DNA of 64,000 bases from Cyanobium usitatum str. Tous (lineage in GTDB: Bacteria; Cyanobacteriota; Cyanobacteriia; PCC-6307; Cyanobiaceae). A program made the translations under genes and the position numbers. Under the pieces are notes generated by a model. That model saw only the letters and a list, made by a program, of their open reading frames with translations. It was not told the DNA's origin and searched no databases. The DNA lies in assembly GCF_963920485.1 (NCBI RefSeq), contig NZ_OY986431.1, positions 2,108,001 through 2,172,000 of the forward strand, read 5' to 3'. Below, in pieces: positions 9,552 through 12,173 of this stretch; positions within the stretch are counted from its first letter, which is position 1, and every line of letters starts with the position of its first letter.

Positions 9552-10139
9552 GTGCTAGTGATCGCCAGCGGCAACCCCGGCAAAGTCCGAGAGTTCAGCC
9601 ACCTACTCGCCGGACTGGGCCTGGAGATCCGGCCCCAGCCCGAGGGCCTGGAGGTGGAGGAAACCGGCAGCACCTTCGCCGAAAATGCCCGCCTCAAAGC
9701 CACCGCCGTAGCCCGAGCCACAGGCGCCTGGGCCCTCGCCGACGACTCGGGCCTGGCCGTCGAGGCCCTTGGCGGTGCTCCAGGCGTCCACTCGGCCCGC
9801 TATGCCGACACGGACGCCGCCCGGATCGCGCGCCTGCTGAAGGAGCTAGCCACCGCCCAGGCCGCCGACCCCGCCGCCAGCCGTGCGGCCCGGTTCACCG
9901 CCGCCCTGGCGGTGGCGGATCCCAGCGGCACCATCCGCCTGGAGGTGGAGGGGATCTGTCCGGGCACGATCCTCAAGGCACCACGCGGATCCGGTGGCTT
10001 CGGTTACGACCCGGTCTTTCTCGTGGACGAAGCCGGGCAGACCTTCGCGGAGATGGCCAAGGAGGAGAAGGCCCGGCTTGGCCACCGCGGTCGGGCCTTC
10101 GCCCTGCTGGACCCCCAGCTGCGTGCCCTGCTGGGCTGA
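9552..10139 (+). CDS. rdgB: XTP/dITP diphosphatase (RdgB/HAM1)
   Basis: A 195-residue house-cleaning nucleotide pyrophosphatase that removes dITP, XTP and ITP. It has the N-terminal SGNPGK motif (residues 6-11), the ADDSGL motif (about 62-67), PGVHSARYA (about 75-83) and GFGYDPVF (about 148-155), all typical of the family. The GTG start follows the stop of the phosphohexomutase by one base, so the two genes are probably co-transcribed. The 3' end is close to the convergent DM13 gene. Confidence 0.93.
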   Translation: MLVIASGNPGKVREFSHLLAGLGLEIRPQPEGLEVEETGSTFAENARLKATAVARATGAWALADDSGLAVEALGGAPGVHSARYADTDAARIARLLKELATAQAADPAASRAARFTAALAVADPSGTIRLEVEGICPGTILKAPRGSGGFGYDPVFLVDEAGQTFAEMAKEEKARLGHRGRAFALLDPQLRALLG

Positions 10140-10142
10140 CGA

Positions 10143-10646
10143 TCAGCCCTTCAGCGGCGCCCAGGCCATGGTGGCGTTGAACTTCTCGCACCAGATCAGC
10201 ACCGAGCCCTGCTTGCTGAGATCGATCGAGGCGGGAATGGTGTAGCTCTGCCCTCCCATACTGGTTTTCAGCGGCGCCAGGATCGTGTAGCTACCGGGCT
10301 TGAGCGGATAGCCGGGCGGCTTGGTGCTGGCGAGGGGCGTAGTCGAGGCGCTGAAGACGATCTTCAGATCGGGGGCCATATCGCTGGTCTTGAAGTCCTT
10401 GCTGAGCGTCAGCATCTTCTTGCCGCCTTCGCTGTGGATCAAGAAGCCGCCACTCACGGGTTTCTCCGCCATCCGGAAACTTCCCTTGGCCAGCGCACCG
10501 GCCATCCCACCGGCAGCCTCTTTCTGCATGGGGTTGATCATCGGCTTGGACATGGATTCGGCGTGGAGCGCCGCACCCGAGAGCAGGGAGGCACCGACCA
10601 AGGCCAGGGCAGCGGAGCGGGCCAGGGTGGAGGAGAAGGGCTTCAT
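10143..10646 (-). CDS. DM13-domain secreted protein
   Basis: A 167-residue exported protein. The ATG at 10646 is chosen because it gives a signal peptide (MKPFSSTLARS, then a hydrophobic stretch and a cut near ALHAES); the frame extends upstream to 10856 but would run through the promoter region. The mature part fits a DM13 domain: a GSF start, a Gly/Pro-rich KPGSYTI turn, and a single cysteine in LIWCEKFN near the C-terminus. DM13 domains are proposed to carry redox chemistry through that cysteine or a haem-like cofactor; this is a family-level prediction. It is divergent from the ECF sigma factor gene and faces it across an inverted repeat, which suggests it belongs to the sigma factor's regulon. 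Confidence 0.8.
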   Translation of the reverse strand: MKPFSSTLARSAALALVGASLLSGAALHAESMSKPMINPMQKEAAGGMAGALAKGSFRMAEKPVSGGFLIHSEGGKKMLTLSKDFKTSDMAPDLKIVFSASTTPLASTKPPGYPLKPGSYTILAPLKTSMGGQSYTIPASIDLSKQGSVLIWCEKFNATMAWAPLKG

Positions 10647-10735
10647 GACTAACGAGGAGTGGGGGCGTGTGTGGTGCGCAGTGGGAAGGGGTGAACCAAC
10701 CGAGTTGAACCGAACGGGATCGACCTCTGCGTCCA

Positions 10736-10847
10736 GGGATACCGATAGGCCTCGGCATCGGATTGGAACGCCCTCACTCACAACCCATGCAGTCCTGCCG
10801 TCGCCGGGCGTTCCGCCAATCCGATCGGGCTGCCCATCGGTATCCCC
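10736..10847. promoter_or_regulatory. long imperfect inverted repeat with two ECF-like -35 elements
   Basis: The left arm is 10736-10773 and the right arm 10806-10847. Both read, from their outer ends, GGATACCGAT, then a GGC-containing part, then ATCGGATTGG, then GGAACG and CCC. The right arm has three extra bases before GGAACG. GGAAC lies at 10765-10769 on the plus strand and at 10814-10810 on the minus strand. GGAAC is the classical -35 core of many ECF sigma promoters. In this layout one promoter would fire rightward to the sigma/anti-sigma genes and the other leftward to the DM13 gene, across a shared central stretch. The promoter reading is inference; the repeat itself is seen. Confidence 0.6.
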
Positions 10848-10890
10848 ATCAGTCAATGCCCGCCGAGAGTGCCTGAACGGCCATCACCCT

Positions 10891-11475
10891 GTGGACTTTC
10901 CTGCCCAACAACCGGATGCCGCTGCCGCCAGGCCGCTGCTGCAGGGATTCGCGTCCGATCAGCCGAGCCCCACCGATCTCGGTGCTCTCTACGACTCATA
11001 CGGCGGGCCCGTCTACCGCCTGGCGCTGCGGCTATGCCGCTCGAACCAGGAGGCGGAAGACCTCTGCCACGACGTCTTTCTGCGGTACTGGAAGCAGGAC
11101 CGCTACGAGCCCTCCCGCGGGCCGGTGCTGGCCTACCTGCTGCTGCTGACCCGCTCGATGGCGATCAACCGCCTCAATCAGCGGAGCAATCGCTGGCAGC
11201 TGGTGCAACGCTGGTCGGAGCAGCTGTTCCCGCAGGCCGTGCGCAGCCCCCAGGAGTCCGCCGAGGCGGATGACCTCAGCCAGCGGGTGCGCCATGCCCT
11301 GGAGACGATTCCCGCCAATCAGCGGCAGGTGTTGGAGCTGGCTTACTACGAAGGGCTAAGCCAGTCTGCGATCGGACAGCGGCTAAACCTGCCGCTGGGC
11401 ACCGTCAAGACCCGTTCCCGCCAGGGCCTGATCCGCCTGCGGGAGTTGCTGATCGATTTCCGGAGCACACCATGA
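10891..11475 (+). CDS. ECF-type RNA polymerase sigma factor
   Basis: A sigma-70 family protein of about 194 residues. Region 2 spans about residues 30-95, with the core-binding segment AEDLCHDVFLRYW. Region 4 spans about 135-187 and includes IPANQRQVLELAYYEGLS and the helix-turn-helix LPLGTVKTRSRQGLIRLR. Regions 1 and 3 are absent, as in ECF sigma factors, and it looks closest to the SigK/SigG-like group. The frame is open to 10321, but the upstream part runs antisense through the DM13 gene. The GTG at 10891 is the best start that keeps the full region 2, without a strong ribosome site. The stop overlaps the anti-sigma start by four bases. The inverted repeat upstream suggests autoregulation. 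Confidence 0.88.
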   Translation: MDFPAQQPDAAAARPLLQGFASDQPSPTDLGALYDSYGGPVYRLALRLCRSNQEAEDLCHDVFLRYWKQDRYEPSRGPVLAYLLLLTRSMAINRLNQRSNRWQLVQRWSEQLFPQAVRSPQESAEADDLSQRVRHALETIPANQRQVLELAYYEGLSQSAIGQRLNLPLGTVKTRSRQGLIRLRELLIDFRSTP

Positions 11476-12173
11476 CACCGCAAGACGCCATCGATGCCCT
11501 GCTGGCCGGCCATGCCCTGGGAGATCTGGACGAAGAGGAACGGCAGCAGCTGACGCTTCTGCTGCAGCAACACCCGGAGCTGCGCCAGCGGCTGGAGGAA
11601 TTCCGCACCACGCTCGAACTGCTGCCCCTGGCCCTGCCGGAGACAGAGCCGGCACCAGAGGGGGTGCGCCACCGCCTGCTGCGCCTACCCATGCAACCCC
11701 AGGTCAGTCGCCGTGTTGCAGCGCCTTCCTGGCTGGTGCCTGGCCTGCTCTCCCTGGGGCTGCTGATCCTCGGCATGGAGCTGCAGCAGACACGCAAGCA
11801 GCTGGCGCAATTGCAGTTGAGGGTGGCTCCGGAACCCACTCTGACGCCGGCTAGCCGGCGCCTGCCCCTGCGGGCGATGCCTGGGAACGGCCAGGGGTTC
11901 GGCGAGGTACTCGTGACCGGCAACCCCACCAACAACATCCTGATGCTCAATGCTCTGCCGCCGCCGCCGCCGAAACACGTCTATCGGCTCTGGGCAAACG
12001 TGAACGGCCGGCCGGTGGGCTGCGTCTCCTTCAAACCCACCGCCCAGGGCCATGTAGCCATGCTGATCCCCCCTTTCCCCACCAGCCAGGCCAGCAGCCT
12101 CAGCGTCAGTGTGGAAGCAGACCCCCTCGGCGCAGCACCCACTGGCCCGCGGGTGTTGACCAGCACTATTTGA
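11472..12173 (+). CDS. membrane anti-sigma factor (RskA-like)
   Basis: A 233-residue partner of the ECF sigma factor, with its ATG overlapping the sigma stop. The N-terminal 1-75 region begins like the sigma-binding domain of RskA-type anti-sigma factors (AGHALGDLDEEE at about 12-23) and lacks a ZAS zinc motif. One transmembrane helix follows (about 85-104), then a short coiled stretch (QQTRKQLAQLQLR). A C-terminal extracytoplasmic domain has the RskA-C pattern GEVLVTG...ILMLNALPPPP...YRLWANVNGRPV. It would hold the sigma factor at the membrane until a periplasmic signal triggers release. The signal is unknown. Confidence 0.85.
   Translation: MTPQDAIDALLAGHALGDLDEEERQQLTLLLQQHPELRQRLEEFRTTLELLPLALPETEPAPEGVRHRLLRLPMQPQVSRRVAAPSWLVPGLLSLGLLILGMELQQTRKQLAQLQLRVAPEPTLTPASRRLPLRAMPGNGQGFGEVLVTGNPTNNILMLNALPPPPPKHVYRLWANVNGRPVGCVSFKPTAQGHVAMLIPPFPTSQASSLSVSVEADPLGAAPTGPRVLTSTI

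Follow-up and report, generated by a model that had tools for sequence, protein, structure and literature searches.

The closest described counterpart of the system considered here is SigK-RskA of Mycobacterium (ECF18/ECF19), in which, according to the account in PMC7509140, SigK is autoregulated and controls mpt70/mpt83; the same account gives two cysteines as present in 94% of ECF18 and 56% of ECF19. Canonical autoregulated ECF operons are described with AAC at -35 and CGT at -10 (PMC8103513). In cyanobacteria, sigG is reported to be cotranscribed with a partner gene, sapG (PMC2758279, PMC11119718), and promoter recognition by SigG, SigH and SigI was stated to be unclear in 2009 (PMC2758279). 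Our literature search found neither a promoter nor a regulon for a cyanobacterial ECF sigma factor of the kind described below, nor any paper combining an ECF sigma factor, DM13 and cyanobacteria; the published ECF re-classification lay outside the scope of this search, and its motif tables may already list the motif.

The locus compared here with these systems lies in a 64,000-nt stretch of the genome of Cyanobium usitatum str. Tous (“the window”). An ECF sigma factor gene (10891..11475, plus strand, with an inferred GTG start) is followed by a gene for an RskA-like anti-sigma factor (11472..12173, plus strand), which overlaps its end by 4 bases and matches PF10099 RskA_C with 41.9 bits against a cut-off of 29.4. 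The sigma factor has the domain pair of the ECF type, PF04542 together with PF04545 and PF08281, and no region 3 model is among its matches, leaving regions 2 and 4 only; its close named relatives are from Synechococcus and Cyanobium strains.

Like the mycobacterial pair, this sigma factor adjoins an RskA-type anti-sigma factor and has SigK as its closest solved relative (chain 4nqw, E 7.2e-17); unlike it, the positions of SigK cysteines 133 and 183 (numbering offset inferred from the chain) are occupied by A and L, the -10 element is CGGTA, the phylum differs, and the candidate targets are DM13 here and MsrA and thioredoxin-like proteins in relatives. The best NCBIfam model is PRK12519 (198.6, below its cut-off of 222) and the SigK model comes second (108.8 bits, below its cut-off of 226); with both models below cut-off and both cysteines absent, we describe the protein as SigK-like without assigning it to SigK. 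Since the cysteines occur in just 56% of ECF19, their absence is compatible with that group. The -35 element of SigK is CCATCC, and a literature search for SigK, CCATCC and promoter together found no paper.

As in the canonical autoregulated operons, so far as PMC8103513 describes them, the sigma and anti-sigma genes would share a promoter predicted for their own sigma factor. The AAC and CGT boxes are, however, absent: those of the window are AATCCGAT and CGGTA (ATCC / GGTA, where distant cyanobacterial homologues have ATCC / CGTA), and the GGTA of the -10 box departs from the usual ECF CGT. With SigG/SapG and the other cyanobacterial ECF-like sigma factors, as these are described, the protein shares the ECF type and the domains r2 and r4. 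The system is probably a SigK/RskA-like, autoregulated ECF system with divergent promoters; the divergent layout is ordinary and of a known kind, and it is the sequence code that is newly read.

Results

An inverted repeat with two outward-facing sites

The DM13-domain protein gene (10143..10646, minus strand; PF10517, E 1.1e-17), whose product has a signal-peptide-like N-terminus by eye, is divergent from the sigma factor gene, and a repeat search placed an inverted repeat between the two, with a left arm at 10736..10766 and a right arm at 10816..10846, each of 31 nt with 25 of the 31 positions complementary (81%) and 49 nt between them. BLAST, by admitting an indel, lengthened the arms to 10736-10773 and 10806-10846 (38 and 41 nt, 78% identity), and none of 1000 shuffles (dinucleotide blocks, 10647-10890) attained 25 matches over 31 nt (mean 17.9, maximum 22). 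The inverted repeat of about 38-42 bases on which the original prediction was built is therefore real. The inner block of the arms, in its exact form ATCGGATTGG(N0-4)AACG, occurs at 2 places in the 2.66-Mb genome, both at the repeat, so that the genome search that had been proposed yielded no further exact copies. A phage origin was rejected, as 10647-10890 gave no phage match.

Read outwards, the arm on the DM13 side is CCAATCCGAT-GCCGAGGCC-TATCGGTATCCC (minus strand) and the arm on the sigma side CCAATCCGAT-CGGGCTGCC-CATCGGTATCCC (plus strand), with the mismatches between them concentrated mid-arm. This is what a two-box promoter would lead one to expect, and AATCCGAT-N12-CGGTA was therefore taken from the window and tested in relatives. 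The putative ECF-type promoter of the DM13 gene (10740..10764, minus strand) consists of a -35-like AATCCGAT at 10764-10757, the 12-nt spacer GCCGAGGCCTAT and a -10-like CGGTA at 10744-10740, and its assignment draws on the sequence, the exact match within the genome and the relatives. The putative promoter of the sigma/anti-sigma operon (10818..10842, plus strand) consists of AATCCGAT at 10818-10825, the spacer CGGGCTGCCCAT and CGGTA at 10838-10842. Because the element points outwards, transcription starts would be expected outside the arms, near 10850 on the plus strand and 10732 on the minus strand, and not in the central segment. No sigma-70-type promoter was found in 10600-10950.

We consider it very probable, from sequence comparison, that the inverted repeat represents two outward copies of one promoter, recognized by the adjacent SigK-like ECF sigma factor. 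The original prediction of two ECF promoters, one for each divergent gene and arranged as an inverted repeat, thus holds for the arrangement and fails for motif and direction: it had read the promoters with GGAACG, and the conserved element is instead AATCCGAT-N12-CGGTA, facing outwards. What can be read directly from the sequences is the motif with its spacing and positions, how far it is conserved, and that it occurs together with the sigma gene.

Conservation within the family

A search of 400 family genomes with the sigma protein (E 1e-40) gave 58 matches in 56 genomes, the window's own included. The stretches holding all 58 loci, some of which end at contig ends, were compared with the sigma gene turned to the plus strand, and 57 distinct 250-nt regions upstream of it, leaving out the window, formed the test set. 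With the 12-nt spacer, a plus-strand site was present in 55 of the 57 at no more than two mismatches and in 46 at no more than one; other spacers (6-11 and 13-18) gave 0-7 loci at the looser threshold and none at the stricter one, and 300 permuted motifs in the same regions gave a mean of 0.06 loci and a maximum of 3. The comparison with related strains that had been called for thus finds the outward site conserved upstream of the sigma gene. Including the window, 56 of 58 loci carry it, pointing to a sigma factor that is probably positively autoregulated. Over these 56 sites, selected at up to two mismatches, the A, C and C of the first box and the G, T and A of the second are invariant. The sigma homologues of L160 and L166 (G005, second copy) have no site upstream at this threshold; the promoter code may have changed there.

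Of the 58 loci, 43, window included, have an upstream DM13 gene on the minus strand, and in 36 of these it is preceded by a minus-strand site at up to two mismatches; in the remaining seven (L096, L126, L128, L134, L140, L141, L149) the closest approach to the motif, with 3 mismatches, stands 92-135 nt from the DM13 match. From locus to locus the distance between paired sites ranges from 17 to 1892 nt, with the spacing inside each site fixed.

These observations bear on a reading in which the arms form the long operator of a second, dimeric regulator common to both genes, as the original prediction had allowed. The long inverted symmetry of the arms speaks for such a regulator, but an operator of this kind is hard to reconcile with sites whose mutual distance varies so widely or with single sites upstream of other genes (see below), and we regard it as very improbable. 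Nor is a second regulator needed, since -35, spacer and -10 together account for the length that the arms share.

The GGAACG hexamers

GGAACG is indeed present in each arm (10765..10770 on the plus strand and 10809..10814 on the minus strand), directed at the gene on either side as first described, and GGAAC is a common -35 element of ECF sigma factors; the first reading had two inward-facing promoters crossing each other. The outward motif, retained in 55 of 57 other loci, argues against this arrangement, as does the distribution of the hexamer. L115, L170 and the window (L171) are the only loci in which GTTCC, which is GGAAC on the other strand, stands just inside both arms; one arm is so flanked in L116 and one site in L132. 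When the whole 250 nt upstream of sigma is taken on both strands, 18 of 57 loci contain GGAACG and 41 contain GGAAC, at no fixed place, and by eye no CGTC lies 16-17 nt downstream of either GGAACG. We rejected GGAACG as a -35 element, since none but the nearest relatives have it next to both arms; both copies are probably incidental and best read as a local carry-over among near relatives, and crossing inward promoters are highly unlikely. The outward-facing pair is the reading followed below.

The gene between the paired sites

At the place of the stretch between the arms (10767..10815), many relatives have a gene for an EamA-family transporter, identified by Pfam for the copy in L042 and by similarity to L042 for the remaining copies. 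Among the 56 loci with a sigma site, 32 have such a gene upstream of sigma, and in 25 of the 36 loci that have two sites it lies, whole or broken, between them. In 24 of these 36 there are EamA matches and the sites are 506-1892 nt apart; L125 has a remnant, with sites 124 nt apart; and the other 11, the window among them with a distance of 53 nt, have no EamA match and sites 17-76 nt apart, which gives the pair its appearance of a “repeat.” L136 has the gene in pieces and L147 a fragment only, and both sites persist whether the intervening gene is whole, fragmented or missing. In L133 (G166) the anti-sigma-like gene is separated from sigma and located upstream of EamA; a site precedes this anti-sigma-like gene by about 150 nt.

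Two loci of one genus, L142 with and L144 without the EamA gene, share the same two sites and have flanks that are 94% (159/170) and 93% (90/97) identical; a 37-nt piece of L144 matches the start region of the L142 EamA gene at 34 of 37 positions, with one gap. This comparison favors loss of the EamA gene, probably more than once, with loss rather than gain as the probable direction. The EamA reading frame, taken from stop to stop, reaches into or past the sigma site in all 32 loci having both, and the sigma promoter would therefore be embedded in the 3′ end of the EamA gene or its remains. We propose that the arms are close together in the window because the transporter gene is absent here.

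The matching flanks of the arms, over roughly 35 bases, had also suggested that one promoter segment was recently duplicated and inverted. If so, the arms of a locus should resemble each other beyond the boxes. Over the 9 nt upstream, the spacer and the 8 nt downstream, identity within loci is 0.40, 0.41 and 0.28, against 0.40, 0.43 and 0.27 between loci (36 loci). The window's own arms, at 0.33, 0.50 and 0.50, share half of the spacer and of the downstream bases, which is somewhat above the averages and the one point in favor of duplication, yet these values stay within about 1.4 standard deviations. With arms no more alike within than between loci, EamA between the sites in 25 of 36 loci, and paired sites found family-wide as well as in 3 of 25 distant loci, the data do not support a recent duplication, which we think extremely unlikely.

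The same symmetry could in principle belong to an RNA or DNA hairpin (attenuator, terminator or structured RNA), and the 111-nt strand does fold at -53.3 kcal/mol (z -4.5), but such a fold is what the repeat alone would produce. A search of 10100-11200 gave no Rfam match, and no terminator-like site was found in 10600-10950; the predicted transcripts would begin beyond the arms, and many relatives have a gene between the two sites. A hairpin function accordingly has next to no likelihood in our estimation, and two outward promoters remain the preferred reading.

Sites and sigma factors across genomes

The exact pattern CMATCCGAT-N12-CGGTA was found in 47 of the 400 family genomes, in 46 of the 56 that bear the sigma gene versus 1 of the 344 others (Fisher test); the count includes the window's genome, and the choice of the leading C and of the M in the pattern was guided by the sequences of relatives. 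The reversed pattern, as a control, was found in 2 of 400. Genome size being a possible confounder, a count was made by hand within the single genus g6, where the exact site is present in 17 of 19 genomes with sigma versus 1 of 23 without it (Fisher p 1e-8).

Genomes usually have several ECF sigma factors, so the promoters might be real and be read by one other than their neighbor. Genome G308 gave no sigma match at E 1e-40 and yet has a perfect site (L190) ahead of an ArsS-like gene; recent loss of the sigma gene, a divergent sigma factor or another reader of the site are all possibilities for this genome. Against a different sigma factor stand the co-occurrence just described and the fact that 56 of 58 loci have the site in front of the very gene for this sigma factor, and we judge such a reader unlikely, the neighboring SigK-like factor being the favored one.

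Within the window's own genome the exact site occurs twice, both times at the repeat. Up to one mismatch gave 7 places versus 3 in the control, two of the seven being the exact pair; up to two mismatches, with a slightly different pattern, gave 59 versus 70 in the control; and at three mismatches any signal among the matches listed was swamped by chance. By eye, no site is in promoter position among the one-mismatch sites L218-L220, and the genome's MsrA-like and thioredoxin-like genes (L246-L250) have none in promoter position at the threshold used. The regulon in this genome may be just these two sites.

The family as a whole has 84 exact sites. The sigma stretches do not cover 28 of these, a few of which are on the same contig at a distance of 8-10 kb. 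Twenty of the 28 were examined, the other 8 all being from genus g6 and resembling the ArsS site of L180. An open reading frame of at least 140 aa follows on the same strand within 100 nt in 17 of the 20 (none does in L203, L206 and L214); random positions pass this test in 41% of cases (68% with a threshold of at least 60 aa), and the recurring functions are therefore the better evidence. After exact sites we found a DM13 gene apart from sigma (L195, G020; an RskA-like stretch lies beside DM13 at 37-273), MsrA (L202), a thioredoxin-like protein in each of two genera (L208, L216), a member of the low-molecular-weight phosphatase family with a resemblance to arsenate reductases (L200, with L205 alike) and ArsS (L180 by TIGR04167; L190 and L204 by resemblance). 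Family-2 glycosyltransferases also follow exact sites (L201 by Pfam; L209 by TIGR04283, the model for an arsenosugar biosynthesis glycosyltransferase; L207, L211 and L215 by resemblance), as do larger transferases that are cellulose-synthase-like by eye (L210, Pfam Glycos_transf_2; L212 and L213 alike).

Perfect sites stand before ArsS-like genes and glycosyltransferases in L180, L204, L190, L209 and L211. These sites, with L209 matching the arsenosugar model, suggest a link of the sigma factor with arsenosugar synthesis in some genera. In four loci the anti-sigma gene is followed by a third site, beside rskA (L148:4313, L150:4295, L155:4328 and L156:4304, with sigma on the plus strand), and in each it precedes, with a constant 26-nt leader, an exported MsrA-like gene named by its resemblance to L202.

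Distant cyanobacteria

Among the class-level matches to the sigma factor, 25 of 31 were examined by an unbiased count of dyads in the 350 nt upstream of sigma. The top dyad was ATCC-N16-CGTA, present on the plus strand in 8 of the 25 loci with 0-1 at other spacings; in 100 dinucleotide-block shuffles it had a mean of 0.04 and a maximum of 1, and the top count of any dyad was 3-6. In the same register the window reads ATCC-N16-GGTA. The exact plus-strand dyad is absent from 17 of the 25 distant loci and neither orientation is present in 15; the opposite strand carries it in 5.

L008, L011 and L028 have both orientations back to back upstream of sigma, with ATCC-N16-CGTA starts 18 nt apart in L008 and L011, and the tight divergent layout therefore recurs outside the window's family. 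The genes beyond the opposite-strand sites, named by reading alone, include those for exported proteins of ferritin-like appearance (L011, L024), for a lipoprotein with repeats (L028), for a DUF4331-like protein with a leader of 187 nt (L030) and for a Crp-like regulator (L008).

Discussion

A simple model would account for the arrangement. At rest, the RskA-like anti-sigma factor would hold the sigma factor; an envelope signal, probably redox in nature to judge from the candidate targets, would free it, and RNA polymerase with the freed sigma factor would bind AATCCGAT-N12-CGGTA in both arms. Rightward transcription of the sigma/anti-sigma operon would provide positive autoregulation with a built-in brake, and leftward transcription would express the DM13 gene, whose product would be an exported redox protein. 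The arms would then look alike because one sigma factor reads both. A striking inverted repeat can, by this account, arise without duplication, where a gene between two promoters of the same sigma factor is missing.

As a tentative and on balance doubtful extension, the locus could be one instance of a cyanobacteria-wide, SigK-like switch for envelope redox repair, with the code ATCC-N16-[CG]GTA, whose promoters in the Synechococcus/Cyanobium relatives flank a transporter gene that has been repeatedly lost and compete in the tightest pairs. If this were true, each loss of the transporter gene would draw the promoters to 17-76 nt apart, and in the tightest cases two holoenzymes could not bind together, coupling autoregulation of the sigma factor in competition to the output of DM13. 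The finding offers a testable promoter code together with a candidate regulon, comprising DM13, to which relatives add MsrA, thioredoxin-like and arsenic-related genes.
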